26,610 bases of DNA, taken from positions 1-26,610 of the IMG/VR virus record IMGVR_UViG_3300025646_000298. The stretch is one strand, 5' to 3'. The DNA comes from a virus. The position numbers and the translations under genes were made by a program. Below the pieces are notes generated by a model. The model was not told the origin of the DNA. It saw only the letters and a list, made by a program, of their open reading frames with translations, and made no database searches. Numbering within the stretch: position 1 is the first letter of the stretch; the number at the start of each line of letters is the position of its first letter. Of the stretch, positions 1 to 22,780 are shown one piece after another.

Positions 1-3000
1 AGCATTAGCTGAAGCTCCGCTTCCTACTTTTAAATAGGATCCATCAAATGTTAAATTAGCTTCACCATTAATAGTTGATGTACCAGTAGCTGTTAATACA
101 TAATTGTTTGTATTGTTAGATATAGTAGCAGCACCACTTGTACCTGATGAACCTGATGTACCTGATGAGCCGCTAGTTCCTGATGAACCACTTGTACCAC
201 TAGCTCCAGCAGCACCTGAGGTACCAGATGAACCACTTGATCCTGAGGTACCAGATGAACCACTTGATCCTGATGTTCCTGAGCTTCCACTTGTTCCACT
301 TGTTCCAGCAGCTCCTGTTGCACCTGTTGCTCCTGAAGTACCACTTGATCCTGATGAACCACTAGTTCCTGAACTTCCGCTTGAACCTGATGTTCCTGAG
401 CTTCCTGAAGTACCAGATGAACCGCTTGTTCCTGAAGTACCTGCTGCACCTGCAGCACCTGTTGCTCCTGAGGTTCCTGATGAACCTGATGAGCCACTTG
501 TTCCGCTTGAGCCACTTGACCCAGATGTTCCTGAACTGCCTGATGTACCAGATGTACCTGATGTTCCTGAAGCACCACTAGCTCCTGAACTTCCACTTGT
601 ACCACTTGAACCTGAAGAGCCTGAAGTTCCTGAAGAACCTGAAGAACCTGAAGTTCCGCTTGAACCTGAAGTTCCGCTTGAACCTGATGTTCCGCTTGAA
701 CCTGATGTTCCTGAAGCACCTGGAGAACCAGTAGCTCCTGATGTACCTGAAGAGCCTGAGCTTCCACTAGTTCCTGAAGAACCTGAAGAGCCACTTGTTC
801 CGCTTGAACCAGAGGTACCTGAAGAACCAGAGGTACCTGATGCGCCTGGAGAACCAGTTGCTCCTGAAGTACCTGAACTTCCTGATGAGCCACTTGTTCC
901 GCTTGATCCTGATGAACCTGATGTTCCTGAACTTCCGCTTGTTCCTGATGACCCTGAAGTACCACTAGTACCTGGAGTACCCGGGGAACCAGTTGCTCCA
1001 GATGTTCCGCTTGAACCTGAAGAACCGCTTGTTCCACTTGATCCTGATGAGCCGCTTGTTCCTGAAGAACCTGATGTTCCACTACTTCCGCTTGTTCCTG
1101 AAGTACCAGGTGTTCCTGGAGAACCAGTAGCGCCTGATGTTCCTGATGAACCTGATGAACCACTAGTTCCGCTTGAACCAGATGAGCCTGATGTTCCTGA
1201 AGAGCCTGATGTTCCTGAAGAGCCTGATGTACCGCTTGTACCTGCTGCTCCTGTAGCACCTGATGTACCTGAAGTACCATTAACACCACTTATACCTGAA
1301 GTACCAGATGATCCAGATGATCCAGATGTTCCAGATGAGCCACTAGAACCTGAAGTTCCTGATGAACCTGATGTTCCTGAACTTCCGCTTGTTCCGCTTG
1401 AGCCTGAGGTACCACTTGTACCAGCAGCTCCTGTAGCACCTGATGTTCCACTTGAACCTGACGAACCACTAGTTCCACTTGAACCTGAGCTTCCGCTTGT
1501 TCCTGATGAACCGCTAGTTCCTGAAGAACCTGATGTTCCAGATGAACCACTTGTTCCTGATGAACCTGATGAGCCTGAAGTTCCTGATGAGCCGGATGAA
1601 CCTGAAGTACCTGAACTACCACTAGTTCCTGATGAACCACTAGTACCTGAGTTACCTGATGTTCCACTTGATCCACTTGAACCTGAAGTACCTGATGAGC
1701 CTGAAGAACCTGATGTTCCAGATGAGCCGCTTGTTCCTGATGAGCCTGATGTACCTGATGATCCTGAACTACCACTAGTCCCACTTGAACCTGAAGAGCC
1801 TGAAGTTCCTGATGATCCAGATGTTCCAGATGAACCTGAACTTCCTGATGTCCCAGATGAACCTGAACTTCCTGATGTTCCACTTGAGCCTGAAGTTCCA
1901 GAAGAACCTGATGTACCGCTTGTACCTGCTGCTCCTGTAGCACCTGATGTACCTGAGGAACCAGATGAGCCGCTTGTTCCACTAGAACCTGAGCTTCCAC
2001 TTGTTCCACTTGAACCTGATGTTCCTGAACTACCGCTTGTTCCTGAGCTTCCTGAACTACCTGAAGTTCCTGATGAGCCTGATGAACCTGAAGTACCTGA
2101 ACTACCACTTGTGCCTGAAGAACCGCTTGTTCCTGATGAACCACTAGTTCCATTAACACCACTTATACCTGAGGTACCACTGCTTCCTGATGAGCCAGAA
2201 GTACCTGATGAGCCACTAGAACCTGAAGTTCCAGAGCTTCCGCTTGTTCCTGATGAACCGCTAGTTCCTGATGATCCTGAGCTACCTGATGTACCACTTG
2301 ATCCTGAAGAGCCTGATGTACCTGATGAACCAGAAGTTCCAGATGTTCCCGATGAACCTGAACTACCAGATGTTCCAGAAGAACCTGAAGAACCTGATGT
2401 TCCACTTGAGCCTGATGTTCCTGAAGAGCCTGATGTTCCAGATGAACCACTTGATCCAGAAGTTCCGCTTGAACCAGATGAACCAGAAGTACCTGATGAG
2501 CCACTTGTTCCTGATGAACCTGAAGTGCCACTTGAACCGCTTGTTCCAGATGAGCCAGATGATCCTGAAGTACCTGAAGAACCTGAGCTTCCTGATGTTC
2601 CTGAAGAACCACTAGTACCTGATGAACCAGAAGTACCTGATGAACCACTTGAACCACTTGTTCCACTTGAACCACTTGAACCTGATGTTCCTGAACTGCC
2701 GCTAGTTCCACTTGAACCTGATGTTCCTGAAGAACCTGAAGTACCACTACTTCCGGATGAACCAGAAGTACCTGAACTACCTGATGAACCTGAAGTACCA
2801 GATGAGCCTGATGTACCTGAAGAACCACTTGTTCCACTCGAACCAGATGATCCTGAAGTTCCTGAAAAACCACTTGAGCCTGATGTTCCTGAAGAACCTG
2901 AAGTGCCGCTTGAACCAGAAGTTCCGCTTGAACCACTTGTTCCATTAACACCTGATATACCTGAGGTACCAGAGCTACCACTTGAACCACTTGTACCTGA

Positions 3001-6000
3001 TGAACCACTTGAGCCTGATGTTCCAGAGCTTCCACTTGTGCCTGAAGAACCACTTGTTCCTGATGAACCACTAGTTCCTGATGATCCTGAACTACCGCTA
3101 GTTCCGCTTGAACCTGAAGAACCTGAGGTGCCAGACGAGCCTGAACTACCTGATGTACCAGAAGAACCGCTTGTTCCTGATGAGCCTGATGTTCCAGATG
3201 AACCACTTGAACCGCTTGTTCCAGATGAGCCAGATGATCCTGAAGTACCTGAGCTGCCTGAAGTACCAGATGAACCACTTGTTCCACTTGAACCGCTTGT
3301 TCCACTTGAACCACTAGAGCCGCTTGTACCTGATGAACCGCTTGAACCTGATGTTCCACTAGAACCTGAAGTACCAGATGAGCCTGAAGTACCACTACTT
3401 CCTGATGAACCAGAAGTGCCTGAGCTACCTGAAGAACCTGATGTTCCAGATGAACCTGAAGTTCCACTTGAACCGCTTGTGCCGCTTGAACCAGATGATC
3501 CTGAAGTTCCTGAAGAACCACTTGATCCACTTGTTCCGCTTGAACCTGATGTACCACTAGAACCTGATGTTCCGTTTACACCACTTATACCTGAAGTACC
3601 ACTTGATCCACTTGAACCACTAGTACCTGATGAACCTGATGAGCCAGAAGTTCCTGAAGAACCTGAAGTTCCTGATGAGCCACTTGTCCCAGAGCTTCCG
3701 CTAGTTCCAGAAGAACCAGAAGAACCGCTTGTTCCACTTGAACCAGAAGATCCAGAAGTTCCGCTTGAACCACTTGTTCCGCTTGAACCAGATGTTCCTG
3801 ATGAACCGCTTGAGCCTGATGTTCCACTTGAGCCTGAACTACCTGATGTACCAGAAGAACCACTTGAACCTGAAGTACCAGAACTACCTGATGTTCCACT
3901 TGAACCTGAACTTCCGCTTGTTCCGGAAGAGCCTGAGCTACCTGAAGTACCTGAGCTACCTGAGGTTCCAGATGAACCGCTTGTACCACTTGAACCTGAG
4001 CTACCTGAAGTACCACTACTTCCTGATGAACCAGAAGTACCTGATGAGCCACTTGTTCCTGATGAACCTGAAGTGCCACTTGAACCACTAGTTCCACTTG
4101 AACCGCTTGAACCTGATGTACCACTAGAACCTGAAGAACCGGATGTTCCGCTAGATCCTGATGTTCCAGAACTACCGCTAGTTCCTGAAGAACCGCTAGT
4201 TCCATTTACACCGCTTATACCTGATGTTCCTGATGAACCTGAGCTTCCGCTTGTTCCAGAAGAACCTGAACTACCTGAAGTTCCTGAAGAACCTGAAGTG
4301 CCACTTGAACCGGATGTTCCTGATGAGCCACTTGAACCTGATGTTCCACTTGAACCTGATGAACCTGAAGTACCTGATGAGCCACTTGTTCCTGATGAGC
4401 CTGATGAACCGGATGTTCCTGAGCTACCTGAAGAGCCACTTGTACCAGAAGAGCCTGATGTTCCACTTGAACCAGATGATCCAGAAGTTCCACTTGAACC
4501 ACTTGAACCTGAAGTACCAGATGAACCACTAGTACCTGATGAACCAGAAGTTCCTGATGAGCCACTACTACCTGAAGTACCAGATGAGCCACTACTTCCT
4601 GATGTTCCTGAACTACCACTTGTTCCTGATGAACCACTAGTACCTGAACTACCGCTTGTTCCTGAAGAGCCACTTGAACCACTAGTTCCTGATGAACCGG
4701 AACTACCTGAGGTACCTGATGAGCCACTTGTTCCGCTTGAACCTGATGTTCCTGATGAACCAGATGAACCAGATGTTCCTGAGCTTCCTGAAGAGCCGCT
4801 TGTACCTGATGATCCTGAAGTTCCGCTTGAACCACTAGTTCCATTTACACCACTTATACCTGATGTACCAGATGATCCTGAAGAACCGCTAGTACCTGAT
4901 GAACCTGAAGAACCTGATGTTCCTGATGAGCCAGATGTTCCTGATGAGCCAGATGTTCCTGAGCTACCTGATGTACCTGAACTGCCTGATGAACCGCTAG
5001 TACCACTTGATCCTGAAGAACCGGATGTTCCAGATGAGCCAGAAGTACCTGATGAGCCAGATGTTCCAGATGAACCACTAGAACCTGATGTTCCTGAAGA
5101 ACCAGAGCTACCTGATGTTCCTGAAGAACCTGAACTACCGCTAGTTCCTGAAGAACCGCTAGTTCCAGATGAACCTGATGAACCAGATGTTCCGCTACTT
5201 CCAGAAGAACCAGAAGTACCACTTGAACCTGAAGTTCCTGAGCTTCCTGAAGTTCCAGATGAACCGGATGAACCACTAGTTCCGCTTGAACCTGATGAAC
5301 CAGATGTTCCACTAGAACCTGATGTTCCAGATGAACCACTTGTTCCGCTTGAACCACTAGTTCCAGATGAACCACTTGATCCTGAAGTTCCTGATGAACC
5401 GCTTGAACCACTAGTTCCGCTTGAACCTGATGTACCACTAGAACCTGAAGTTCCTGAAGAACCACTTGTTCCATTAACACCACTTATACCTGAAGTACCG
5501 CTACTACCACTTGAGCCGCTTGTACCTGATGAGCCTGATGAACCACTTGTTCCTGAAGAACCACTTGAACCACTTGTGCCTGATGAACCAGAGGTTCCGC
5601 TTGAACCTGAAGTACCAGAACTACCTGAAGTACCACTTGAACCTGAGCTACCACTAGTTCCTGATGAACCAGAGCTGCCTGAAGTTCCTGAACTACCTGA
5701 AGTACCTGATGAACCACTTGTGCCTGAGCTTCCTGAACTACCTGAAGTACCACTACTTCCTGATGAACCTGAAGTACCAGATGAACCACTTGTACCACTT
5801 GAGCCTGAAGTTCCTGATGAACCAGATGAACCGCTAGTACCAGATGAACCGGATGAACCACTAGTTCCGCTTGAACCTGAAGTTCCGCTTGAACCACTAG
5901 TACCTGAACTACCTGAAGTGCCAGATGAACCAGATGAACCTGATGTTCCGCTTGAGCCTGAGCTGCCTGATGTTCCGCTTGAACCTGAAGTACCTGAAGA

Positions 6001-9000
6001 ACCACTTGTTCCTGAGCTGCCTGAACTACCTGAAGTTCCTGATGAGCCACTTGAACCTGATGTACCTGAACTACCACTTGTTCCTGATGAACCACTAGTT
6101 CCATTCACACCACTTATACCTGAAGTACCTGAGCTGCCTGAAGAGCCGCTTGTACCTGATGAACCACTAGAACCTGATGTTCCAGAGCTTCCACTTGTTC
6201 CTGATGAGCCTGAGGTTCCGCTTGAACCACTTGTTCCTGAAGAACCACTTGAACCACTTGTACCTGATGAACCACTTGATCCAGATGTTCCTGATGAACC
6301 TGAAGTGCCAGAACTACCTGATGTTCCGCTTGAACCTGATGAGCCACTTGTTCCTGAAGAACCGCTAGAGCCACTTGTTCCACTAGAACCTGATGTTCCA
6401 GAGCTTCCGCTTGTTCCTGATGAACCTGAGCTGCCTGATGTTCCAGATGAGCCTGAGCTGCCTGATGTTCCTGATGATCCAGATGTTCCACTAGATCCAG
6501 ATGTTCCAGATGAACCTGATGAACCTGAAGTTCCTGAGGATCCAGATGAACCTGATGTACCACTAGATCCGCTTGTTCCGCTTGATCCTGAAGTTCCTGA
6601 TGAACCAGATGTTCCTGATGAACCGGATGAGCCTGAAGTACCTGATGAACCTGAACTACCACTAGTTCCTGATGAACCTGAAGTACCTGAACTACCACTA
6701 GTTCCTGAAGAGCCTGATGTACCATTTACACCAGATATACCTGAAGTACCTGATGAGCCTGAAGAGCCGCTTGTACCTGATGAGCCTGATGAGCCTGAAG
6801 TTCCTGAACTACCACTTGTTCCAGATGAACCAGAGGTTCCAGATGAACCAGATGAGCCTGATGTTCCAGATGAACCTGAGCTTCCTGAAGTACCAGATGA
6901 ACCAGATGAACCTGAGGTTCCAGATGATCCACTAGTACCACTAGAACCTGAAGTTCCTGATGAGCCACTTGAACCACTTGTACCTGATGAACCACTTGAT
7001 CCTGATGTTCCTGAAGAACCAGATGTTCCTGAAGAACCGCTTGTTCCGCTTGAACCTGAAGTACCACTTGAACCTGATGAGCCTGATGTTCCACTTGAAC
7101 CTGATGAGCCTGATGTTCCACTAGATCCACTAGTTCCACTGGACCCGCTAGTTCCGCTAGAACCTGAAGAGCCACTTGTACCTGATGAACCTGAGCTACC
7201 TGATGTACCACTTGATCCTGAAGTGCCTGATGAACCACTAGTTCCGCTTGATCCGCTAGAACCTGAAGTACCTGAGGAGCCTGATGAGCCTGATGTACCA
7301 GATGAACCGCTTGTACCACTTGAACCAGAAGTTCCACTTGAACCACTTGTTCCATTAACACCGCTTATACCTGAAGTACCACTTGAACCAGATGATCCAC
7401 TAGTACCAGATGAGCCGGATGTACCTGAACTTCCGCTTGTACCGCTTGATCCTGAAGAACCTGATGTTCCACTTGAACCTGAAGAACCAGAAGTACCTGA
7501 ACTTCCAGAAGTTCCACTTGAACCAGAAGTTCCGCTTGATCCTGATGAACCTGATGTACCTGATGAGCCTGAGCTGCCTGAGGTACCACTAGAACCAGAT
7601 GTTCCTGAAGAACCTGAAGTTCCAGAAGAACCGCTTGTTCCGCTTGATCCAGATGAACCGCTTGTTCCGCTTGATCCTGAAGAGCCACTTGTGCCTGAGC
7701 TACCTGATGTACCAGAAGAACCTGATGTTCCTGATGAACCGCTTGAGCCACTAGTTCCTGATGAACCAGAGCTTCCTGATGTACCTGATGAACCTGAAGT
7801 TCCAGAAGAACCGCTTGTTCCATTTACACCACTTATACCTGATGTACCTGATGATCCTGATGAACCACTAGTACCTGATGAGCCTGATGAACCTGAAGTA
7901 CCACTAGAACCAGATGTTCCAGATGAACCTGAAGTACCTGAAGAACCTGAAGAACCAGATGTTCCTGATGAACCGCTTGATCCAGATGTTCCTGAAGAAC
8001 CTGAAGTTCCAGAAGAACCGCTTGTTCCGCTTGAACCACTAGATCCTGAAGTACCACTTGATCCTGAAGAACCGCTTGTGCCTGAAGAACCTGAAGTTCC
8101 AGATGAGCCTGATGTTCCTGAAGAACCTGAAGTTCCGCTTGATCCGCTTGATCCAGATGTTCCTGAAGAACCTGATGAACCAGATGTTCCTGAAGAACCT
8201 GATGAACCACTTGTTCCTGATTCTCCTGAACTACCTGAACTACCTGAGGTGCCTGATGAACCAGAGGTTCCACTAGAACCACTAGTACCATTTACACCAC
8301 TTATACCTGATGTACCACTGCTTCCTGATGAGCCAGAAGTACCTGATGAACCACTTGATCCGCTTGTTCCGCTTGATCCTGAAGTTCCGCTTGAGCCACT
8401 TGTACCTGAAGAGCCAGAGGTTCCACTAGAACCACTTGATCCAGAAGTTCCAGAAGAACCTGATGAACCTGAAGTACCAGATGAACCGCTTGTTCCACTT
8501 GAACCTGAAGTTCCGCTTGAGCCTGAGCTACCACTAGTTCCTGATGATCCTGATGAACCACTTGTTCCGCTTGAGCCACTTGATCCAGATGTTCCTGAAG
8601 AGCCACTTGTACCTGATGATCCAGATGTTCCACTGCTTCCTGATGAGCCTGATGTTCCTGAAGAACCTGAACTACCTGAAGTTCCTGATGAACCACTAGT
8701 CCCTGATTCTCCTGAACTTCCACTGGAGCCTGAAGTACCAGATGAACCACTTGTTCCATTAACACCACTTATACCTGAGCTTCCGCTTGTTCCTGATGAA
8801 CCAGATGAACCACTTGTTCCTGATGAACCGCTTGAACCTGAAGTTCCGCTTGAGCCACTTGTACCTGATGAGCCTGAACTACCTGAGGTGCCTGAAGAAC
8901 CACTTGAGCCTGATGTACCTGATGAACCTGAAGTACCGGATGAACCGCTTGTTCCGCTTGAACCAGATGAGCCACTTGTTCCTGATGAACCTGAGCTACC

Positions 9001-11745
9001 AGATGTTCCTGATGAACCGCTTGTTCCGCTTGAACCTGAAGTTCCAGAAGAGCCACTTGTTCCACTTGAACCTGAGCTACCTGAAGTGCCTGATGAACCG
9101 CTTGAGCCAGATGTTCCTGAAGAACCACTTGTACCTGATGAACCTGAGCTACCAGATGTTCCTGAAGAACCACTTGAACCGCTAGTTCCTGATGAACCGC
9201 TTGTTCCGCTTGAGCCAGATGTACCATTTACACCTGATATACCTGAAGTACCAGAGCTGCCTGAAGAGCCGCTTGTACCTGATGAGCCTGATGAGCCTGA
9301 AGTTCCTGAGCTTCCACTGGAACCTGAAGTGCCAGATGAGCCGCTTGAGCCTGATGTACCGCTTGAACCAGATGTTCCTGAAGAGCCGCTTGAGCCAGAT
9401 GTTCCTGATGAACCACTTGAGCCAGATGTTCCACTTGATCCTGAAGAACCAGAAGTACCTGATTCTCCTGAACTTCCGCTTGAACCACTAGTTCCTGATG
9501 AACCAGAACTACCTGAGGTACCAGATGAACCTGAAGTACCATTAACACCTGATATGCCTGAGGTACCTGAACTGCCGCTTGAGCCTGATGTACCACTTGA
9601 GCCTGAAGAACCAGAAGTGCCTGATTCTCCTGATGAACCACTTGAGCCAGAGGTTCCTGATGAACCACTTGAGCCTGATGTACCACTAGAACCTGATGTT
9701 CCATTTACACCACTTATACCTGAAGTACCTGAGCTGCCTGAAGAGCCACTTGTACCTGATGAGCCTGAAGTTCCTGATGAACCTGATGTACCACTAGATC
9801 CGCTTGAACCTGATGTACCGCTTGAACCTGATGAGCCTGATGTTCCTGATGAACCACTAGTGCCACTAGAACCTGAAGTACCAGAGGATCCTGAAGAACC
9901 TGAAGTGCCTGATGAACCTGATGAGCCTGAAGTGCCAGAAGAACCGCTTGTTCCGCTTGAGCCTGAACTTCCTGATGTGCCACTTGAACCGGAACTGCCT
10001 GATGTTCCTGATGAACCACTTGTTCCGCTTGAGCCTGATGTACCACTTGAACCGGAACTACCTGAGGTTCCTGATGAACCGCTTGAGCCTGAAGTTCCAC
10101 TAGAACCAGAAGTTCCAGATGAACCACTAGTTCCTGATGAACCAGATGAACCAGAAGTACCAGATGAGCCTGAACTACCTGATGTTCCTGATGAACCAGA
10201 AGTACCAGATGAACCAGAAGTTCCATCTATACCACTAGTTCCAGAACTACCTGAGCTTCCGCTTGTTCCTGATGAACCGCTTGAACCTGAAGTACCAGAA
10301 CTACCTGAAGTGCCTGATGAACCTGAAGTGCCAGAACTACCTGAACTTCCGCTAGTTCCTGAAGAACCTGATGAACCGCTAGTACCAGAACTACCTGATG
10401 TTCCGTCTATACCTGAAGTACCAGATGAGCCTGAACTACCTGAAGTTCCAGATGAGCCGCTTGAGCCACTTGTTCCTGAACTTCCACTTGTACCAGAACT
10501 ACCTGATGTTCCTGATGAGCCTGATGTTCCACTTGAACCACTTGAGCCTGATGTACCACTTGATCCTGATGAGCCAGAAGTACCATCTATACCTGAAGTG
10601 CCAGACGATCCTGATGAACCACTAGTACCTGATGAACCTGATGAACCACTTGTTCCGCTTGAACCTGAGCTTCCGCTTGTTCCTGATGAGCCACTTGAAC
10701 CAGATGTTCCTGAAGAACCGCTTGTTCCGCTTGAGCCTGAACTGCCTGAAGTACCAGATGAACCTGATGAACCACTTGTTCCGCTTGAACCAGAGGTTCC
10801 TGAAGAGCCACTTGTTCCACTAGAGCCTGAGCTTCCGCTTGTTCCTGATGAACCGCTTGAACCTGAAGTTCCTGATGAGCCTGATGTACCAGATGAGCCT
10901 GATGTACCACTTGAGCCTGATGAGCCAGAGGTACCATCTATACCTGAAGTACCAGAAGAACCACTTGAACCTGAGGTACCTGATGAACCTGAACTTCCGC
11001 TAGTTCCTGAACTACCTGAAGTGCCAGATGAGCCACTAGTTCCGCTTGATCCTGAAGAACCAGATGTACCTGAAGATCCTGATGAACCTGAAGTTCCAGA
11101 TGAACCACTAGTTCCACTTGAACCAGAGGTACCACTTGAGCCTGAACTTCCACTTGAACCAGATGAGCCTGAGGTTCCTGATGAGCCTGAGGTTCCTGAT
11201 GAACCTGAGGTTCCACTAGAGCCAGAACTACCTGAAGTTCCGCTAGAGCCGGAACTACCTGAAGTTCCACTAGAGCCAGAACTACCTGAAGTTCCTGATG
11301 AACCACTAGTTCCACTTGAGCCTGATGAGCCAGATGTTCCTGAACTACCTGAAGTTCCTGATGTTCCAGATGAAGGCATATCAGAATATTCTACTTCTCC
11401 AGTAGCAGGTATATAAGTTACAACATATGAAGGACTAGCTTCATATGGTAAAGTTTGAATTATAATAGGTTGGGAAGAACCAGAGATTACTAATGAGCCG
11501 GTAATTACTGCTGAACCAGAAAATGGGAAACCTATACCTGAACCTGATATAAAGACTGTTACTCCTTCTGTTGAAGAAATAATATCTGTATAAGCATCAA
11601 CTGAGCCTGTAAAATTAATAAAAGGAGCACTAGATTTAACTAGTGACCCAGTATAATATATATCAATAGTACCATTACCACTTCCTGCTGTATCCGCTTG
11701 GAAAACCCCTACTGGTACCTGATCAAGGAATCTAACTTTAGCCAT
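1..11745 (-). CDS. Giant collagen-like (Gly-X-Y) phage fibre protein, C-terminus beyond window
   Basis: The frame is open from an ATG at 11743-11745 to base 1, at least 3,915 residues. Residues 1-126 form a non-repetitive domain beginning MAKVRFLDQVPVGVFQAD and ending in short beta-type GS repeats (GSAVITGSLVISGS). Residues 127-3873 are 1,249 Gly-X-Y triplets, almost all Gly-Thr-Ser or Gly-Ser-Ser, with virtually no Pro, aromatic or charged residues. The last 42 visible residues (ATISNNTNNYVLTATG and onward) resemble the region before C-terminal tip or chaperone domains of phage fibres. The gene sits alone behind an AATATTTATA box, 24 nt after the gp15-like gene, so a tail or neck fibre is likely. 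Gly-X-Y rods in phage fibres normally trimerise; the Ser/Thr-rich, Pro-poor composition could instead favour glycosylation or a polyglycine-II-like packing. Receptor binding is inference. The repeat frame is certain; the exact role is not. Confidence 0.9.
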   Translation of the reverse strand, partial: MAKVRFLDQVPVGVFQADTAGSGNGTIDIYYTGSLVKSSAPFINFTGSVDAYTDIISSTEGVTVFISGSGIGFPFSGSAVITGSLVISGSSQPIIIQTLPYEASPSYVVTYIPATGEVEYSDMPSSGTSGTSGSSGTSGSSGSSGTSGSSGTSGSSGSSGTSGSSGSSGTSGSSGSSGTSGSSGTSGSSGTSGSSGSSGSSGSSGTSGSSGTSGSSGTSGSSGSSGTSGSSGSSGTSGSSGTSGSSGTSGSSGSSGTSGSSGSSGTSGIDGTSGSSGSSGTSGSSGTSGSSGTSGSSGSSGTSGSSGSSGTSGSSGTSGSSGTSGSSGSSGTSGSSGSSGTSGSSGTSGSSGSSGTSGSSGSSGTSGSSGSSGTSGSSGSSGTSGIDGTSGSSGSSGTSGSSGSSGTSGSSGTSGSSGTSGSSGTSGSSGSSGTSGSSGSSGTSGIDGTSGSSGTSGSSGSSGTSGSSGSSGTSGSSGTSGSSGTSGSSGSSGTSGSSGSSGTSGIDGTSGSSGTSGSSGTSGSSGSSGTSGSSGSSGTSGSSGTSGSSGTSGSSGSSGTSGSSGSSGTSGSSGTSGSSGTSGSSGSSGTSGSSGSSGTSGSSGTSGSSGSSGTSGSSGSSGTSGSSGTSGSSGTSGSSGSSGTSGSSGSSGTSGSSGTSGSSGTSGSSGSSGTSGISGVNGTSGSSGTSGSSGSSGTSGSSGSSGESGTSGSSGSSGTSGSSGSSGTSGISGVNGTSGSSGTSGSSGSSGTSGSSGSSGESGTSGSSGSSGTSGSSGSSGTSGSSGSSGTSGSSGTSGSSGSSGTSGSSGSSGTSGSSGSSGTSGSSGSSGTSGISGVNGTSGSSGTSGSSGTSGSSGSSGTSGSSGSSGTSGSSGTSGSSGSSGTSGSSGSSGTSGSSGTSGSSGTSGSSGTSGSSGSSGTSGSSGSSGTSGSSGTSGSSGTSGSSGSSGTSGSSGSSGTSGSSGTSGSSGSSGTSGSSGSSGTSGSSGISGVNGTSGSSGTSGSSGSSGESGTSGSSGTSGSSGSSGTSGSSGSSGTSGSSGTSGSSGTSGSSGSSGTSGSSGSSGTSGSSGSSGTSGSSGTSGSSGTSGSSGSSGTSGSSGSSGTSGSSGTSGSSGTSGSSGTSGSSGSSGTSGSSGSSGTSGISGVNGTSGSSGTSGSSGTSGSSGSSGESGTSGSSGSSGTSGSSGSSGTSGSSGSSGTSGSSGTSGSSGTSGSSGTSGSSGSSGTSGSSGSSGTSGSSGTSGSSGTSGSSGSSGTSGSSGSSGTSGSSGTSGSSGTSGSSGSSGTSGSSGSSGTSGISGVNGTSGSSGTSGSSGTSGSSGSSGTSGSSGSSGTSGSSGTSGSSGTSGSSGSSGTSGSSGSSGTSGSSGTSGSSGTSGSSGTSGSSGSSGTSGSSGSSGTSGSSGTSGSSGTSGSSGSSGTSGSSGSSGTSGSSGTSGSSGTSGSSGSSGTSGISGVNGTSGSSGTSGSSGTSGSSGTSGSSGSSGTSGSSGSSGTSGSSGTSGSSGTSGSSGSSGTSGSSGSSGTSGSSGTSGSSGTSGSSGSSGTSGSSGSSGTSGSSGTSGSSGTSGSSGTSGSSGSSGTSGSSGSSGTSGSSGTSGSSGTSGSSGSSGTSGSSGSSGTSGSSGSSGTSGSSGTSGSSGTSGSSGSSGTSGSSGSSGTSGISGVNGTSGSSGTSGSSGTSGSSGTSGSSGSSGTSGSSGSSGTSGSSGTSGSSGTSGSSGTSGSSGSSGTSGSSGSSGTSGSSGTSGSSGTSGSSGSSGTSGSSGSSGTSGSSGTSGSSGTSGSSGSSGTSGSSGSSGTSGSSGTSGSSGTSGSSGSSGTSGSSGSSGTSGSSGTSGSSGTSGSSGTSGSSGSSGTSGSSGSSGTSGISGVNGTSGSSGTSGSSGTSGSSGSSGTSGSSGSSGTSGSSGTSGSSGTSGSSGSSGTSGSSGSSGTSGSSGTSGSSGTSGSSGTSGSSGSSGTSGSSGSSGTSGSSGTSGSSGTSGSSGSSGTSGSSGSSGTSGSSGTSGSSGTSGSSGSSGTSGSSGSSGTSGSSGTSGSSGTSGSSGTSGSSGSSGTSGSSGSSGTSGSSGSSGTSGISGVNGTSGSSGTSGSSGTSGSSGTSGSSGSSGTSGSSGSSGTSGSSGTSGSSGTSGSSGTSGSSGSSGTSGSSGSSGTSGSSGTSGSSGTSGSSGSSGTSGSSGSSGTSGSSGTSGSSGSSGTSGSSGSSGTSGSSGSSGTSGSSGTSGSSGTSGSSGSSGTSGSSGSSGTSGSSGTSGSSGTSGSSGTSGSSGSSGTSGSSGSSGTSGISGVNGTSGSSGTSGSSGTSGSSGSSGTSGSSGSSGTSGSSGTSGSSGTSGSSGSSGTSGSSGSSGTSGSSGTSGSSGTSGSSGTSGSSGSSGTSGSSGSSGTSGSSGTSGSSGTSGSSGSSGTSGSSGSSGTSGSSGTSGSSGSSGTSGSSGSSGTSGSSGTSGSSGSSGTSGSSGSSGTSGSSGTSGSSGTSGSSGSSGTSGSSGSSGTSGISGVNGTSGSSGTSGSSGTSGSSGTSGSSGSSGTSGSSGSSGTSGSSGTSGSSGTSGSSGTSGSSGSSGTSGSSGSSGTSGSSGTSGSSGTSGSSGSSGTSGSSGSSGTSGSSGTSGSSGSSGTSGSSGSSGTSGSSGSSGTSGSSGTSGSSGTSGSSGSSGTSGSSGSSGTSGSSGTSGSSGTSGSSGTSGSSGSSGTSGSSGSSGTSGISGVNGTSGSSGTSGSSGTSGSSGSSGTSGSSGSSGTSGSSGTSGSSGTSGSSGSSGTSGSSGSSGTSGSSGTSGSSGTSGSSGSSGTSGSSGSSGTSGSSGTSGSSGTSGSSGTSGSSGSSGTSGSSGSSGTSGSSGTSGSSGTSGSSGSSGTSGSSGSSGTSGSSGSSGTSGSSGTSGSSGTSGSSGTSGSSGSSGTSGSSGSSGTSGISGVNGTSGSSGTSGSSGTSGSSGTSGSSGFSGTSGSSGSSGTSGSSGTSGSSGTSGSSGSSGTSGSSGSSGTSGSSGTSGSSGTSGSSGTSGSSGSSGTSGSSGSSGTSGSSGTSGSSGTSGSSGSSGTSGSSGSSGTSGSSGTSGSSGTSGSSGTSGSSGSSGTSGSSGSSGTSGSSGTSGSSGTSGSSGSSGTSGSSGSSGTSGTSGSSGTSGSSGSSGTSGSSGSSGTSGSSGTSGSSGTSGSSGSSGTSGSSGSSGTSGISGVNGTSGSSGTSGSSGTSGSSGTSGSSGSSGTSGSSGSSGTSGSSGTSGSSGTSGSSGSSGTSGSSGSSGTSGATGAAGTSGTSGSSGTSGSSGTSGSSGSSGTSGSSGSSGTSGSSGTSGSSGSSGTSGSSGSSGTSGSSGTSGSSGTSGSSGSSGTSGSSGSSGTSGNSGTSGSSGTSGSSGTSGSSGSSGTSGSSGSSGTSGSSGTSGSSGTSGSSGTSGSSGSSGTSGSSGSSGTSGATGAAGTSGTSGSSGTSGSSGTSGSSGTSGSSGSSGTSGSSGSSGTSGISGVNGTSGTSGATGAAGTSGTSGSSGTSGSSGTSGSSGSSGTSGSSGSSGTSGATGSPGTPGTSGTSGSSGTSGSSGTSGSSGSSGTSGSSGSSGTSGATGSPGTPGTSGTSGSSGTSGSSGTSGSSGSSGTSGSSGSSGTSGATGSPGASGTSGSSGTSGSSGTSGSSGSSGTSGSSGSSGTSGATGSPGASGTSGSSGTSGSSGTSGSSGTSGSSGSSGTSGSSGSSGTSGSSGASGASGTSGTSGTSGSSGTSGSSGSSGTSGSSGSSGTSGATGAAGAAGTSGTSGSSGTSGSSGTSGSSGSSGTSGSSGSSGTSGATGATGAAGTSGTSGSSGTSGSSGSSGTSGSSGSSGTSGAAGASGTSGSSGTSGSSGTSGSSGTSGAATISNNTNNYVLTATGTSTINGEANLTFDGSYLKVGSGASANA
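718..1263 (-). repeat. Pro/Ala-bearing sub-repeat (Gly-Ala-Thr-Gly-Ser-Pro-Gly) near the C-terminal end of the rod
   Basis: GATGSPG recurs with its Pro codon at 721, 847, 982 and 1117, and a related GATGAAG has its first-listed Ala codon at 1243. Spacings are 126, 135, 135 and 126 nt, or 14-15 triplets. Further Ala-rich triplets occur near 1423 and 1927 and in 190-480. This end of the rod is the only part where Pro appears regularly, so it may be a distinct, stiffer section next to the tip domain. Confidence 0.85.
1276..10942 (-). repeat. Landmark triplets dividing the rod into quantised segments
   Basis: Sixteen copies of Gly-Ile-Ser-Gly-Val-Asn-Gly have their Asn codon at 9703, 9541, 9226, 8758, 8290, 7822, 7354, 6724, 6103, 5473, 4843, 4204, 3574, 2944, 2152 and 1279. 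Four N-terminal copies read Gly-Ile-Asp-Gly instead, with the Asp codon at 10936, 10585, 10405 and 10225. From N- to C-terminus the spacings in triplets are 39, 20, 20, 58, 18, 35, 52, 52, 52, 52, 70, 69, 70, 70, 71, 70, 70, 88 and 97. They cluster at whole multiples of about 17.5 triplets (about 19.5 in the first section). Confidence 0.92.
11162..11293 (-). repeat. Perfect and near-perfect tandem copies at the N-terminal start of the rod
   Basis: Three 18-bp copies (11162-11179, 11180-11197, 11198-11215) are followed by three 27-bp copies (11213-11239, 11240-11266, 11267-11293) that differ by only one or two bases each. The units are whole numbers of triplets (2 and 3), so copy-number change would keep the reading frame. 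This looks like recent slippage, unlike the synonymously scrambled rest of the rod. Confidence 0.85.
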
Positions 11746-11755
11746 TATTGTTTAC

Positions 11756-16720: not shown

Positions 16721-18481
16721 TTACAAAGTGTTCAAGCCACTAACGTAAATCTTACCATAGAATTCAGGACGTAACATCTTCTTGGCGTAACGAGTCAAGA
16801 GACCTTTTCTAGGAGTGAAGGTATCAGGATCGTAAACCAATGGAGTCATGATCAATGGAATGTATGGAGCAAATACAGCACCAGTTTCCAAGAATTGTGA
16901 ACCTCTATAGCCCATTAAGATTAAGTTTTCAGTCATGTATGGGTTCTTGTAAACCTTGTAACGACCGTTAACTGAACCAACTTTCTGTACACCGAATGCA
17001 TACTCTTCTTGAGCAGCATCACCGTTGTTTGTAGAAGCAAATCCTGGGATTGATTCCAAGATAGTAGCGATAGTTGGAGAAGTTACTAAGAAGTTTGCAC
17101 CACCACGTAAAGTTAATTGGTGAATCTTGTTAGATACTTTCTGGATCTTAGTTCCTAAAGTTTGGAACCACTGACCTTGAGTGTTGTAGAATGGAGAAGC
17201 AGCTGTAGTGAAAGCAGTTCCAGCGTTGTTAATAACTTCGTTGTTATTAGCTGACCAGTACTCAGTAGCAGCAGCAGCATCTTCGATCAACATATCCAAG
17301 ATTTCCATATCAATTTCCATTGAAATGTACTCACTCATAATGTTAGTCAATTCAGCTTCAGCATCGATGTTTTGGTAAGCTGACAAGTCTTGAGCGAACT
17401 CAGGAGTCCATACAGCTTTCAATTTCTTAGTCTTAGCAGTGATAGCTTGTGACTGCATCTTAACGTTGATCTCAGGGATAACGATTTGAGAAGCAGAAGC
17501 AGCGTTAGGTACTGAGAAAGCACCATCAGCTTCGAAATCACCACGACCAGATACTAAACCAGAACCACCGTTGTTACCTGAAGTTACATTCAATCCATCT
17601 TGGGAAGTTGACTTCTGATAGAATACAGTGAATGAACCAGAGCAAGTAGCTGTAGTAGAAGCTGTGTAGTAGAAAGAAACTGTACCAGCAGTGTAGTTGT
17701 AAGTAGTGAATTGAGATAACAAGTTAGCTGGAGCGAAAGCACCACCATCAGCTGAACCTGAAACTACGAAACCACGAACAGCATCCTGATCGAATGAAGT
17801 TAATACAGAAGCAGTAGCTACAGTTACTTTGTAAATACCGTTAGCAACTACAGAAGCTGAATAATCTGAATCGAAATTCAAGTCAGCCCAAGAAGCGGTA
17901 ACGATAGAACCAGTTCCAGCAGCGATAGTTGGTAAAGTACCACCTCCGATAGATCCTGTGAAAGGAACAGAAGCTGAGAATTGGTTAGTAGCGTAAGTGA
18001 AACGACCTTCTGGACCACCATATAAACCACCAGCAGCGGCTGGAGTTGAGAATGGGAATTGAGAAGCAGTGTCTCTAGTTCCGTACAATGACTGACCAGC
18101 AGTGAAAGGATTCTTAGTGTTACCATATTGGAAATCCAAGAAGAATACAAGACCTGAAGGCATGTTCATTGGCTGAACGCTAACAAATTCTTTAGCTACG
18201 ATAGTACCGAATACTTTACGTACTAATGGAAGAGCAATACCAGCCCAGTTCTCACCCTCTCCACCTGAAGTGAAGTAAGAGTTTGAAGAAACAGTATTGA
18301 CTTCAGTTACTAATTGCTTAGCTTGGTTTTCCAACAATACAGACATATTGTTTTTGTTAACCTCGTCTAAGCCTTCCAATAAGCCAGTTCTAGCCCATTT
18401 CCCGGCTAATCTGGCAGCGTCGCTTTGCAAGTTCTTCCATGAACCAGCAGCGCTCTCTAATAATTGTTGTACTTGTGACAT
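16721..18481 (-). CDS. gp23: Major capsid protein, gp23-like
   Basis: 586 residues (T4 gp23: 521). The N-terminal block WARTGLLEGLDE and LLENQAKQLVTE (about 29-60), ENWAGIALPLVRKVFG (77-92) and VQPMNMPSGLVFFL (102-115) are clear gp23 signatures, as is the C-terminal TPRKGLLTRYAKKM. LVTE at 57-60 fits the [L/I]-x-E site cut by T4-type prohead proteases, close to the T4 gp23 cleavage after residue 65. A Gly/Ser-rich stretch (about 120-310) accounts for the extra length and may be an insertion or surface domain. Codon use favours AAC, ATC, TTC and TAC more than the neighbours, fitting very high expression. The leader is A-rich without Shine-Dalgarno sequence. It lies 29 nt after the scaffold gene and ends at a strong terminator. 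Confidence 0.98.
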   Translation of the reverse strand: MSQVQQLLESAAGSWKNLQSDAARLAGKWARTGLLEGLDEVNKNNMSVLLENQAKQLVTEVNTVSSNSYFTSGGEGENWAGIALPLVRKVFGTIVAKEFVSVQPMNMPSGLVFFLDFQYGNTKNPFTAGQSLYGTRDTASQFPFSTPAAAGGLYGGPEGRFTYATNQFSASVPFTGSIGGGTLPTIAAGTGSIVTASWADLNFDSDYSASVVANGIYKVTVATASVLTSFDQDAVRGFVVSGSADGGAFAPANLLSQFTTYNYTAGTVSFYYTASTTATCSGSFTVFYQKSTSQDGLNVTSGNNGGSGLVSGRGDFEADGAFSVPNAASASQIVIPEINVKMQSQAITAKTKKLKAVWTPEFAQDLSAYQNIDAEAELTNIMSEYISMEIDMEILDMLIEDAAAATEYWSANNNEVINNAGTAFTTAASPFYNTQGQWFQTLGTKIQKVSNKIHQLTLRGGANFLVTSPTIATILESIPGFASTNNGDAAQEEYAFGVQKVGSVNGRYKVYKNPYMTENLILMGYRGSQFLETGAVFAPYIPLIMTPLVYDPDTFTPRKGLLTRYAKKMLRPEFYGKIYVSGLNTL

Positions 18482-18510: not shown

Positions 18511-19884
18511 TTATTTAATACCGGCTAATTTTTGCCATCTAGCAACCTGATCATTAGCTTCCATAATTGGCTTTTTAGCAACTACACCAGCTACTTTAGA
18601 AGCACCACCATGGATTAATGATTCATTTACAGGAGCTTTCTTAGATTTAAATCCTTCATTCAAAGTATCAAATACTAATTTAGCTTCTTTAACACTAGCA
18701 GCTTTATCAAAAGCAGCTAATACTTTTACCTTTTGACCTTCGGTCAAGTTTTTAGATTTGAAGATTTTGTTAGTGTAAAGAAGTTTTGCGTTGAATAAGT
18801 TAACCTCAGCTAATTCTTCCTTAATAGTTTTAATGGTGTTATAAGCTTCATTTAACTCTTCTTCAAGATTACTTCCTGGTGAAAAACCGCCTTTAGCGTC
18901 TTTGTAATCAGGACCACCTTTTTTAACAAATGCTACAGCTTTTTCAGCAGCTACTTCAGGTTTCATTCCTTCTTTTTCATACTTTGCAGCTAAAGCAGCA
19001 ATTTCTTTCTTTTCATCAGCGTTTGCTTTCCAAGCTCCAAAAGCAGCAAGGGCTGAAACAATACCGCCAGCTATAAGAGCTGCGCCTACGATTTCGTTTA
19101 CTGGTTCTTTGTTTTCTTTCATTTTTCTTTTGTAATCAATTTCACCTTCAGCTTCAGCGGAATCTTTTTTCTTTGGACCACGACCATGACCTTCTTTTTT
19201 CTTTTTCATGTCGTCACGTTTTTCGTCGCCTTTGTTTCCACCGTACTTTTTACGTTCCATGATTTCTTCTTCTTCACCTTCTTCTTCTTCATCTTCTTCT
19301 TCGCCTTCAGCGCCTTCACCAGCTTCTAATTCACCAGCTTCAACCATGTCAGCGATTACATCTTCGATAAATTTCTTAAGATCATCTTCATCCATGTTTT
19401 CAAGATCGATTTCTTCTTCTTCACCTTCTTCTTCTTCACCTTCTTCTTCGTCAGCTTCTTCTTCATCAGCTTCAGCTACGTTTCCGTGGGCGGTTTCTGT
19501 TTTAGGATCGTTGATTAAATCTTCTCCCTCCATTACTGAATCATCTTCTTCTAATTCATCTAGTTCTCTAAGGAGTTCTTCAAGGTCCATTTCGTCGTCG
19601 TCGTCAGCTTCTTTAACACCTAAGTCTTTCTTGCCCATTTGGCCTTCATAGCCTTCAGCGTCATCAGCTTCTTCAACTTCGTAAGTTTCCTCGATTTCTT
19701 CCTCTTTCATTTCTTCTGCTTCTTCAATGTCTTCCTCATCCATTTCAGCTAGTTTTGCTTTAAGCAATTCTTGCATACGTGGAGCGAAGGCTTCTTCTAA
19801 AGCAGCTTTTGCATTGGCGATGGCTGTTTCCTTAACAGCTTTAGCATCGGCAATGGCTTCTTTGAGTAAGTCTCTGTTTGCCAT
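18511..19884 (-). CDS. gp22: Prohead scaffold protein, gp22-like, with acidic and hydrophobic insertions
   Basis: 457 residues from ATG at 19884; an upstream in-frame TTG (19908) would add MRKKLKKS-type residues but is less likely, because MANRDLLKEAIADAKAVKET is the usual scaffold N-terminus. The order is an N-terminal helix, a very long Glu/Asp tract (about 45-215), a Lys-rich stretch (about 215-255), a hydrophobic Gly/Ala segment EIVGAALIAGGIVSALAAFG (about 262-285), and a gp22-like C-terminal helical region ending VARWQKLAGIK. T4 gp22 (269 residues) forms the prohead core and is cut up by gp21 during maturation; possible [I/L]-x-E sites occur here (for example IME before ANDQ). It is followed at 29 nt by the capsid gene. 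The hydrophobic segment is unusual for a scaffold. Confidence 0.9.
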   Translation of the reverse strand: MANRDLLKEAIADAKAVKETAIANAKAALEEAFAPRMQELLKAKLAEMDEEDIEEAEEMKEEEIEETYEVEEADDAEGYEGQMGKKDLGVKEADDDDEMDLEELLRELDELEEDDSVMEGEDLINDPKTETAHGNVAEADEEEADEEEGEEEEGEEEEIDLENMDEDDLKKFIEDVIADMVEAGELEAGEGAEGEEEDEEEEGEEEEIMERKKYGGNKGDEKRDDMKKKKEGHGRGPKKKDSAEAEGEIDYKRKMKENKEPVNEIVGAALIAGGIVSALAAFGAWKANADEKKEIAALAAKYEKEGMKPEVAAEKAVAFVKKGGPDYKDAKGGFSPGSNLEEELNEAYNTIKTIKEELAEVNLFNAKLLYTNKIFKSKNLTEGQKVKVLAAFDKAASVKEAKLVFDTLNEGFKSKKAPVNESLIHGGASKVAGVVAKKPIMEANDQVARWQKLAGIK

Positions 19885-20041: not shown

Positions 20042-20644
20042 TTAAAGAATAGGGCAAGAACCGTTTGCGCAAAGAATTTCGGAAAGTAATGTGTTAACTT
20101 TACCGTATTGATATGTTGGTACTTCTTTACCTTCTTTAACAAGATGCATATATGAACCTGGATTAGAAGGTGTTGAAACAAAATCCCAACAAAGTAATTC
20201 AAAATCGTCTTGTACCTCTAATGTTTCACCTACTTGCTTAAGTGAACCCATTCCACGAGATGATACACCTACTGTAACACCGTTATCAATAAGTGCTTTT
20301 AAAATGTTTCCGGAGACGGTTGGTAAAATTTCTATTTTACCCATTACATTATTACCGTCCCACCAGCATTCTCTTATAATATGAGAAACGTTTTTAAGGG
20401 ATATAATAGAGGATTCAGGGTGGTCTAATTCACCTGTTGCTCTATTTTCTTTAATAATCTCTTGATATTTATTAATTTCTCTTTCCCATAACTCTCTATC
20501 GTACCATCTACCATTACCGTTTTTAACTTCAGCGGTAGCTAAAGGACCTTCTACAATTGGATTACCAGAAGGTGCTCTCATACCCTCATGTAATTGCTTA
20601 GGGGATACCTGGAAAGGGATAGTTTCGATGAGTACTTGTTTCAT
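20042..20644 (-). CDS. gp21: Prohead core protease, gp21-like
   Basis: 200 residues (T4 gp21: 212). The motif GELDHPES puts the catalytic His at 75, and GVSSRGMGS puts the nucleophilic Ser at 128 or 129; both are hallmarks of the T4 gp21 family of serine prohead proteases. WDFVSTPSNPGS (153-164) is the conserved block after the active site. The enzyme assembles within the prohead core and cleaves scaffold and capsid proteins after [L/I]-x-E. The start ATG overlaps the stop of the preceding gene (TAATG), so the two are coupled. The C-terminus (LSEILCANGSC) is short and probably autocleaved, as LSE fits the recognition rule. Confidence 0.96.
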   Translation of the reverse strand: MKQVLIETIPFQVSPKQLHEGMRAPSGNPIVEGPLATAEVKNGNGRWYDRELWEREINKYQEIIKENRATGELDHPESSIISLKNVSHIIRECWWDGNNVMGKIEILPTVSGNILKALIDNGVTVGVSSRGMGSLKQVGETLEVQDDFELLCWDFVSTPSNPGSYMHLVKEGKEVPTYQYGKVNTLLSEILCANGSCPIL

Positions 20645-21465
20645 TAGATAGCTGATTCTTTATCGGCGGCTTGTTTCTTAATGTTAGCTAAAGCTAATTC
20701 AGCAGCGGCTTTTTGTTTTCCTAAATCTTCTACTTTCTTTTCAGCAGCAGCAATTTGTTGATCAAGTGGTCCTTCTTCAATTGTATCTTCATTTTCTTCT
20801 ATATCATCTTCAGATAATAATTCTAATAAAGATTTTCTATATATTGATTCTTTAACTGGTTTTGGCATATCTCCATAACCAGAAGATTTATATTTTCCTT
20901 TAGGTTCTTTAGGTTCCCCACCACCAACAACATCATTAGTATATCCAATATCTTTAACACCAAATGAAGCTTTTGTATGATAATAATTAACATCTTTAGT
21001 CATATTTTTTAATACAATTTGCTTCAATTCATCTACAGTTTTATTAGCATTTTTAGGATCTTTCATTTCTGTATAATATCCCATTAAAAATGACTGACCA
21101 TAAACGTTATCAACATTTTTATTATTTTTATTATCAAACTGGTGGTCTAAAGTCTTTTGAACATCTTTGTCGATTTTTTCAAATTCGTTTTGATCACCAT
21201 ATTCTTTTTTATTTTTAACACCTACAGCTTCTTTAAGGCTATCATTAAATGTTTTAAACCAGTTTGGTGTAGCAGGAGTTAAAGTAACTACTCCACCTGC
21301 TGCTTCAGATAAAAGACTTTTACTTTTCAAAATATGAACAGTAGTATCAAAATCATTTAAAGAAGTAACGTATTCAGGAAACAAGTATTTAGCTTGTTTT
21401 AAAAAATGTTGTTTATCACCTTTACCTTCTTTAATTAAATTATATTGTTCTTGTAAGGTTGCCAT
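20644..21465 (-). CDS. Probable prohead core protein of unknown family
   Basis: 273 residues. The N-terminal part (LQEQYNLIKEGKGDKQHFLK and on) is helical. Residues about 100-200 are Asn/Lys-rich, with QSFLMGYYTEMKDPKNANKT and a KTVDELKQIVLKNM helix. The C-terminus (about 225-273) is an acidic then Ala/Lys coiled coil (DQQIAAAEKKVEDLGKQKAA). I recognise no named family. Placement directly before and coupled to the prohead protease, in the slot of T4 genes 67/68, and the coiled coil suggest a core or scaffold component that the protease degrades. It has a box only 5 nt before the ATG. Confidence 0.8.
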   Translation of the reverse strand: MATLQEQYNLIKEGKGDKQHFLKQAKYLFPEYVTSLNDFDTTVHILKSKSLLSEAAGGVVTLTPATPNWFKTFNDSLKEAVGVKNKKEYGDQNEFEKIDKDVQKTLDHQFDNKNNKNVDNVYGQSFLMGYYTEMKDPKNANKTVDELKQIVLKNMTKDVNYYHTKASFGVKDIGYTNDVVGGGEPKEPKGKYKSSGYGDMPKPVKESIYRKSLLELLSEDDIEENEDTIEEGPLDQQIAAAEKKVEDLGKQKAAAELALANIKKQAADKESAI

Positions 21466-21488: not shown

Positions 21489-21845
21489 TTAGATAGATAT
21501 TGTTTCTTGTGGGCCATATCCTACTCCCCTTAATCTTAATGTGTTTGCTGGAATATCTGCTGCTGGTTCAAAAGTTAAAGTTGTATTTCCTGGGTCTACT
21601 ATAACAGAAGCTATATAGTCACTTTGTATTAAACTATACTGTCCAGAGTCTAAAGTAAATGAACCTGAGGTATTTTTTGGAGAACTTGTATCATATAAAC
21701 TAGAACTATTAGGTATAGTTTCTAATGTGAAATAACTTGTAGCGGGAGAAGGGTTATTAATAACAAAATCTAAAGTAGTACCAGAACTAACAGTTGTAGT
21801 CACTAAAGTATTACTAGATGTAGTTGATATATTTACTGTAGCCAT
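21489..21845 (-). CDS. Small beta-rich hypothetical protein
   Basis: 118 residues, Ser/Thr-rich, with regular strands (TLDFVINNPSPATSYFTLETI, SGSFTLDSGQYSLI, ASVIVDPGNTTLTFEP, NTLRLRGVGYG). There is no cysteine, signal or catalytic motif. It starts on a TAATG overlap with the 311-residue gene and so is translated with it. Its small beta-sandwich look would fit a head decoration or internal head protein, but no family is recognised. The position inside the prohead-core cluster is odd for a decoration protein. Confidence 0.75.
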   Translation of the reverse strand: MATVNISTTSSNTLVTTTVSSGTTLDFVINNPSPATSYFTLETIPNSSSLYDTSSPKNTSGSFTLDSGQYSLIQSDYIASVIVDPGNTTLTFEPAADIPANTLRLRGVGYGPQETISI

Positions 21846-22780
21846 TATTTTTTAAATAATTCTATTACGTCGTCTAAATATTCTTTAGCTAAATCTGTTC
21901 CATATACAACATTAAATGAATCTGGATTTTGTTTGTAGTAATCCATTGTTTCATGTTTTGCTTGTTGCATTAAAGGAATTAATTCATTTAACTTTCTTTC
22001 TATTTCATCAAATGCTAATAATCTACCTCCAACCCATTTTTGGTTTGATGATTTGTTTATATTAGCATCTTGTAAATAAGATTCAACATCTGTATCTTCC
22101 CAAAGTTTTTTAACTTCAATACCTTTAGCTGCCTTATTTAATTTATTTTTATTAACTAATTTATATTTAAAATCAGTTATGTATTTATTTTTAATAACAC
22201 CTTCAGGACCTGCTTTTGGACCAGGACCCATAGTTGCTCCTGGACCTTCATTTACTTTTTTAAATCCTGCTTGTGTATAAGCTCCATAAGTTGATTTTCT
22301 AGGAGAAGGACCATTATGGTTTTCACCTTCACCTCCTGAAGTAAAAAATGAAGTGGAGCCTAAAGTAGACATTTCATCTAATAAATTTTTAATTTGAACA
22401 TACTGTTCAGGATACTCTTTTCTAATATGAGTTCTAAATTTATTAAATACATTTCTAGCATCTTGAGCTAATACTGCTAAAGTAGGATCTGCTTTACCAT
22501 CTGCTGTTTTAGATAAGTCAGTTAATGCTTTAACCGCCTCTGACATTTCTCTTAAAGCATCTCCAAAATTAGCTAATTTTATAATTTGATGATTTATTTG
22601 ACCTGTTTCATCATCAACATCAACTGTTTTAAAGTAAGTACTTAAAGTATCATTAAAGAAGTCATTTTTATAATCAATTTTACCATAACGTCTTTCAATC
22701 CTATCTAATAATTCAGGATCAACGTCTTTAGGTTTGATTACATCATCCGCTTCTTTTAATTTATACTTGTAATTAGCCAT
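21845..22780 (-). CDS. Head-cluster protein sharing a 24-residue module with the capsid protein
   Basis: 311 residues, mostly helical. Residues 132-155 align without gaps to residues 56-79 of the major capsid protein with 14 identities, including an [L]-x-E site (LLDE, 133-136) and the string FTSGGEGEN. Next comes a Gly/Pro linker (about 179-195, EGPGATMGPGPKAGPEG), then a Lys-rich helical C-terminal domain. It overlaps the 285-residue gene by 8 nt and is coupled to the 118-residue gene. The shared module suggests processing by the same prohead protease or a shared binding surface. I know no family name; a head or core protein delivered in the prohead is the best reading. Confidence 0.8.
   Translation of the reverse strand: MANYKYKLKEADDVIKPKDVDPELLDRIERRYGKIDYKNDFFNDTLSTYFKTVDVDDETGQINHQIIKLANFGDALREMSEAVKALTDLSKTADGKADPTLAVLAQDARNVFNKFRTHIRKEYPEQYVQIKNLLDEMSTLGSTSFFTSGGEGENHNGPSPRKSTYGAYTQAGFKKVNEGPGATMGPGPKAGPEGVIKNKYITDFKYKLVNKNKLNKAAKGIEVKKLWEDTDVESYLQDANINKSSNQKWVGGRLLAFDEIERKLNELIPLMQQAKHETMDYYKQNPDSFNVVYGTDLAKEYLDDVIELFKK

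Follow-up and report, generated by a model that had tools for sequence, protein, structure and literature searches.

What is a hydrophobic, Gly/Ala-rich segment doing inside the scaffold protein of a T4-related phage? The question is raised by a 26,610-base virus contig (the window, that is, the whole stretch of DNA analyzed), in which positions 18511-19884 form a single uninterrupted minus-strand ORF of 457 residues from an ATG; a plus-strand reading was ruled out by its many stops. The gene order is gp21, scaffold, gp23, and gp22 occupies the same place in T4. Because gp21 and gp23 flank the gene and a T4-type portal lies upstream, together with part of a terminase, the gene holds the gp22 position, which identifies its product as the scaffold of a T4-related phage. 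No unusual RNA structure was found ahead of the gene (z -1.51). The features discussed here are collected in Table 1. Elsewhere in the window, a minus-strand ORF at 1-11751 (3917 residues, open at the window edge) contains 1249 unbroken Gly-X-Y triplets and is rich in Ser/Thr. Its predicted product is a giant collagen-like protein, and a 3770-residue plus-strand ORF is probably its shadow.

Table 1. Features of the scaffold locus, in window positions unless a locus is named
Feature	Position	Strand	Basis or remark
gp22-position prohead scaffold gene	18511..19884	minus	457 aa and stop; neighbors, unbroken ORF
gp21 prohead protease (Peptidase_S77)	20042..20644	minus	domain match; presumed cutter of the scaffold
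gp23 major capsid protein	16721..18481	minus	Gp23 match
273-aa protein, probable second core protein	20644..21465	minus	lookalikes at other loci have scaffold-type basic cassettes; likeness by eye
Residues 1-45, conserved N-terminal helix	19750..19884	minus	conserved alignment columns; model helix 3-58
Residues 46-210, acidic tract	19255..19749	minus	53% D/E; mostly low model confidence
Residues 211-264, Lys-rich cassette (KKYGGNKGD...)	19093..19254	minus	from after EIME210 to VNE264
Glu264, proposed P1 of the cut VNE264/I265 ahead of the hydrophobic segment	19093..19095	minus	motif counts; T4 L/I-X-E
Residues 265-285, Gly/Ala-rich hydrophobic segment, 21 residues	19030..19092	minus	hydropathy; model helix 261-281
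Residues 265-346, proposed exchangeable module	18847..19092	minus	comparison with relatives, model
Residues 347-457, conserved C-terminal domain	18514..18846	minus	alignment, model; VNE421/S, IME442/A, end motif RWQKLAGIK
Neighbor proteins with scaffold-type basic cassettes	L069:2160-3275, L051:498-1847, L064:1510-3534		

The scaffold has no Pfam match and one weak match to an unnamed PHROG family. An hhalign comparison with T4-type gp22 is collinear (probability 3.7, P 0.012), a score insignificant by itself, and the short collinear alignment sets TKDLTESQKEKV against SKNLTEGQKVKV of T4 gp22. Its location in the gene order and this short match together favor homology to T4-type gp22. Like T4 gp22, the protein lies between gp21 and gp23, is rich in Glu and is helical; unlike T4 gp22, it has 457 rather than 269 residues, a long acidic tract, and a slot with hydrophobic and basic modules. 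The original prediction, made before any database search, of an enlarged gp22-type scaffold with a long Glu/Asp tract, a Lys-rich stretch behind it and a hydrophobic Gly/Ala segment is borne out in each of these parts. The acidic tract contains a conserved helix, DDLKKFIEDVIADMV; the Lys-rich cassette has 35% K/R and 24% D/E, and the scaffold as a whole 29% D/E. Cassettes akin to this one are present in the scaffolds of loci L002, L004, L033, and L036. Another ORF at L033 (L033:3136-3591) has FITEAKRMQKLAGI close to its N-terminus. At the other end of the scaffold, the C-terminus past IME442 (R.QKLAGI; window 18514-18561 and homologues) is strongly conserved and resembles a detachable end tag.

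The hydrophobic segment reaches a best 19-residue Kyte–Doolittle mean of 2.14, matched in 18 of 10,000 shuffles of the protein, while seven T4-type gp22 proteins from named phages lack such a segment (highest 19-residue hydropathy 1.29). A flat biological (Hessa) sum is +0.6 for 19 residues and +1.0 for 21, which makes the segment, as judged from its letters, a borderline and not clear-cut candidate for a transmembrane helix. The proposed module of about 80 residues would consist of this hydrophobic helix, a hairpin at 289-321 and a Gly-rich linker running to LNE346. Its end at 346 is less sure because Glu346 is also kept in scaffolds without the module (48 of 51 aligned rows). The module region is 100% identical on four other IMG/VR contigs, one of which, L083, has a shorter acidic tract.

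An AlphaFold2 model of the scaffold, built on an alignment of 51 sequences, is confident for residues 341-410 of the C-domain (pLDDT blocks 86-96) and gives blocks of 76-91 for the hairpin. The hydrophobic segment is modeled as a helix with low to moderate confidence (blocks 57, 72, and 76), compatible with a membrane or a soluble setting. The acidic tract is mostly of low confidence, and the ordered parts of the protein are helices; with an overall pTM of 0.32, these parts are not positioned relative to one another. In the model of a relative with two hydrophobic modules (L116), the first module (173-252) forms four helices, its pLDDT blocks lying at 75-90 apart from two weak blocks at 64 and 51, and the second is mostly of low confidence (40-73). 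At an E-value limit of 0.001, Foldseek found nothing similar to either model, and the VIA-align matches were mainly common three-helix bundles on the C-domain.

Relatives were sampled by scans of viral and genome contigs, mostly up to 80 loci per scan. The 224 ORF matches reduced to 186 unique sequences, 151 with a complete C-domain start and 129 clusters, of which 121 have at least 150 residues ahead of the C-domain; 21 new clusters were added later. The named-phage matches comprise six records, four of them Flavobacterium phage immuto, one Microcystis phage Mel-JY01 and one an uncultured phage. The immuto scaffold matches the C-terminal part of the query with 56% identity over 107 residues. 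Flavobacterium phage vB_FspM_immuto shares the order of portal, protease, scaffold, and capsid, and its slot holds a tandem pair of modules; unlike the query module, those of immuto lack a hydrophobic character (hydropathy across the protein peaks at 0.69). An immuto scaffold homologue (L089:7095-8336) is annotated as a DNA polymerase phi-like protein, probably because of its acidic tract. Of 17 loci found in the genome-contig scan, six come from bins assigned to Flavobacteriales or Flavobacteriaceae and the others from unrelated or unnamed bins, which makes a host among the Bacteroidota plausible.

Comparison with these relatives locates the variation. In the first 80 loci listed, the stretch that separates the acidic helix from the C-domain varies greatly, and among the 144 representatives from the sampled loci that hold this slot, 28 have a hydrophobic module, 57 another low-acid block and 59 neither, a hydrophobic module being defined by a 19-residue hydropathy of at least 1.5, a cut-off chosen after the sequences had been seen. 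BLAST linkage, which is rough for compositionally biased sequences of this kind, sorts the hydrophobic modules into 11 families. The query module belongs with those of L002, L005, L086, and their near-copies; the largest family has 13 representatives spread over diverged scaffolds. L003 resembles the query closely (C-domain 87%, gp23 80%) yet carries a different module, and L006, L008, and L009 (C-domain 83-85%, gp23 70-74%) have no hydrophobic module at all. Among slot-bearing scaffolds, each cluster being represented by a single row, 76 of 328 pairs whose C-domains are at least 85% identical disagree on the hydrophobic module; with all slot-bearing rows, many of them near-copies, the count is 106 of 490. 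A C-domain tree with 139 rows requires at least 15 changes of the hydrophobic-module state against a shuffled mean of 25.7, so that presence of the module clusters on the tree even though gains and losses are frequent; the starred branches alone force four changes in a tree with few columns and many unsure forks. The slot is hypervariable, and the comparison with related scaffolds proposed in the original prediction shows that the segment is an insertion. A variable slot in a T4-type scaffold was not found in the titles and abstract starts of papers listed by searches of an open-licence library.

What fills the slot appears to be maintained. In 11 of 14 pairs, those with enough change, module dN/dS is 0.04-0.47, the pairs being partly non-independent through shared sequences and the window-L002 pair being near saturation. 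The remaining three pairs are too close: L002-L087 gives 0.67 on very few changes, and two pairs are nearly identical. Low dN/dS within families indicates that the modules are under selection and are not filler; the substitution patterns show purifying selection on them, and the modules are frequently replaced, though for the most part preserved as long as they are there. GxxxG packing, a feature of some two-peptide bacteriocins, was considered for the hydrophobic modules and rejected, as 11 of 28 carry the motif and composition shuffles give 10.9.

The modules were also sought outside the scaffold. A scan with the query module found seven loci and one with a second hydrophobic module eight, and the idea of free-standing module genes was discarded, the matches falling in scaffold ORFs at all 15 loci. 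At 14 of the 15, the matched ORF includes the scaffold C-domain as well, and the fifteenth, at L087, is a scaffold by other comparisons. Hydrophobic slots gave no match to non-scaffold ORFs of the sampled loci, the second hydrophobic module none in the phage collection, and the modules scanned no convincing known family in Pfam, NCBIfam, and PDB-sequence searches; a hit of the L002 module to perm_prefix_1 (20 bits, cut-off 30) was set aside. The Lys-rich cassettes behave differently from the hydrophobic inserts. Cassettes of some scaffolds recur at L069, L051, L064, L072, and L073 in a neighbor protein that by eye resembles the 20644-21465 product, and the cassette in the L069 neighbor protein is 70% identical over 88 residues with L021. 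These cassettes seem to travel between head proteins. The 42 unique neighbor-like proteins, collected by an N-terminal motif, range from 172 to 829 residues, some perhaps clipped by contig ends, and none of the 42 has a hydrophobic insert. Gp47 of Pelagibacter phage HTVC027P (L088; a 57.6-kb phage) is a 112-residue basic protein with a weak match to the cassette pattern QGY.DR.DES...SYGKFG.

Whether a module could be released from the scaffold depends on sites for the prohead protease. In T4, gp21 cuts after L/I-X-E (PMC9026906). A motif of this type, [VIL][NT]E, lies within 45 residues ahead of the hydrophobic core in 23 of the 28 scaffolds with a hydrophobic module, compared with 8 of the 59 block-free scaffolds and 2 of the 57 that carry another block (p = 6e-10). 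This p value is optimistic, since the sequences had already been viewed when the [NT] form, the window of 45 residues and the hydropathy cut-off were set, the windows compared differ in location, and the representatives are related. The reversed motif occurs in 6 of 28 hydrophobic scaffolds and 3 of 59 without a block, and the plain [VIL]xE hardly separates the groups (27 of 28 versus 47 of 59, p = 0.053). By reading, 9 of the 11 hydrophobic families have at least one member with [VIL][NT]E, the exceptions being L003 (IDE) and L184. At block starts, P3 is V, I, or L in 36 of 86 cases against 1538 of 7991, with kinship between sequences ignored; in a per-protein shuffle of the distance from site to hydrophobic start, p fell below 0.05 in 3 of 22 rows (out of 26). 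By these counts, putative protease-type sites are enriched ahead of the hydrophobic modules.

The query scaffold has five [VIL][NT]E sites, after residues 264, 346, 382, 410, and 421, and the module lies between the first two. With 31 [VILM]xE sites in the protein, no single site counts for much; VNE264/I is, on its motif and place, a likely gp21-like protease site. Of 51 aligned scaffolds, 48 retain Glu421 and 49 retain Glu442, and P3 is V, I, or L at 95 of 106 and 119 of 119 of these places against a background of 2721 of 9735, counted in those of the 129 representatives where a Glu-requiring pattern found the place. The capsid protein has a candidate cut, LVTE60/V61, near the place of the T4 65-residue propeptide cut (PMC9958956), and [VIL]xE stands there at 301 of 301 loci showing the surrounding motif (334 loci sampled, many of them near-copies). 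The peptide FTSGGEGEN is identical in gp23 and the minus-strand ORF 21845-22780, its gp23 copy standing ten residues past the proposed propeptide cut. Among tandem copies, site and copy edge meet in some cases. A strict repeat scan found 13 representatives with internal repeats, some outside the slot, and none in the 21 new clusters; on these 13, a strict edge test matched a site to 4 of the 26 copy edges, or to 5 with M allowed. For L046 and L099, each tandem copy begins at the Glu of a site (VTE/IEE and LSE/LEE); judged by eye, the immuto copies begin at VNE/GFEQW and LEE/GFEQW, and those of L007 at IDE and IKE.

Scaffolds, proteases, and ejected internal proteins are known kinds of phage component. 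Phages inject varied proteins with their DNA, the T4 internal proteins being an example. Here the slot holds the Lys-rich cassette (211-264) and the proposed hydrophobic-helix/hairpin module (265-346). We infer that the scaffold, in hundreds of copies, would bring the module into the prohead core, where gp21 would cut at VNE264/I and near LNE346/A to free a peptide of about 82 residues; that the peptide would be retained in the head and delivered into the cell together with the DNA, in the manner of T4 internal proteins; and that its helix may then act on a membrane or a host target, action on the membrane at DNA entry being a guess. The scaffold would thus be a carrier, whose exchangeable slot peptides are freed by gp21, kept, ejected, and active in the cell, a reading that we favor tentatively and put at somewhat short of an even chance. 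The original prediction had also raised a fusion of a core protein to gp22, which holds only in the wider sense of a scaffold fused to exchangeable modules.

T4 offers partial precedents for the carrier. Each prohead has 576 copies of gp22, and a 2.5-kDa gp22 fragment is retained at 115 copies per head (PMC9026906). The T4 internal proteins are varied, share a common targeting sequence and include one that blocks a restriction enzyme (PMC3012670, PMC9026906). The slot resembles IPI-IPIII in its highly diverse content, which in those proteins follows a targeting part that stays constant and an L/I-X-E cleavage site (PMC3012670, PMC9026906); unlike IPI-IPIII, the variable part lies inside the scaffold gene and not in separate genes with an N-terminal capsid targeting sequence. 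The proposed likeness to the gp22 and gp67 fragments is that these are core-protein pieces freed by gp21 and retained in the head (PMC9026906); unlike those fragments of 2.5 and 3.9 kDa, the module would have about 82 residues and be partly hydrophobic.

The main rival to the carrier reading is a role in assembly only, by which the modules serve as spacers or helical contacts to adjust how the core packs, the size of the head or the contact with the shell, after which gp21 destroys them along with the remaining scaffold and they leave the head. T4 fragments of gp22, gp67, and gp68 do mostly leave the head (PMC9026906, PMC9958956), the four-helix model of the first L116 module could be a soluble bundle, and the 59 of 144 representatives with neither block also favor this account; yet 11 hydrophobic families and the discordance between near relatives suit cargo better than a surface matching a conserved capsid, and we consider a purely structural role somewhat unlikely. 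Neutral insertion, in which in-frame DNA of any kind is accepted in a disordered region of the scaffold and occasionally happens to encode a hydrophobic stretch, would suit the patchy distribution, the many unrelated contents and the L002-L087 value on very few changes. It fits poorly with the low dN/dS of the 11 judgeable pairs, with a linked family of 13 representatives over diverged scaffolds and with [VIL][NT]E ahead of 23 of 28 hydrophobic modules, and appears very improbable.

The original prediction had considered it conceivable that the segment anchors the prohead. T4 heads start on the inner membrane via gp20 and detach after proteolysis (PMC9026906, PMC9958956), so the segment, with its hydropathy of 2.14, could tether the assembling core to the inner membrane, with the VNE264 cut aiding detachment. 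The segment is, however, missing in 116 of 144 representatives and in the close relatives L006, L008, and L009, and the seven T4-type gp22 proteins do without one. The at least 15 state changes on the C-domain tree, a slot shared with soluble-looking and basic blocks, a likely protease site just ahead of the segment and the borderline insertion sum tell against it as well. Such tethering is improbable, and a permanent membrane anchor unlikely.

For the carrier, support is good for the slot and modest for release and delivery. A wider form of the same idea, possible but doubtful, is that across a large environmental T4-like group the scaffold serves as a polyprotein vehicle, with a protease-edged slot for swappable, sometimes tandem, membrane-active or host-targeting peptides injected by the hundreds per head. 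Because there is a cultured Flavobacterium phage, the carrier reading is testable. If true for this widespread environmental group, one conserved gene would be a place to find new anti-host peptides in viral genomes, and these scaffolds would offer a model from nature of how peptides can be loaded into the head of a phage.
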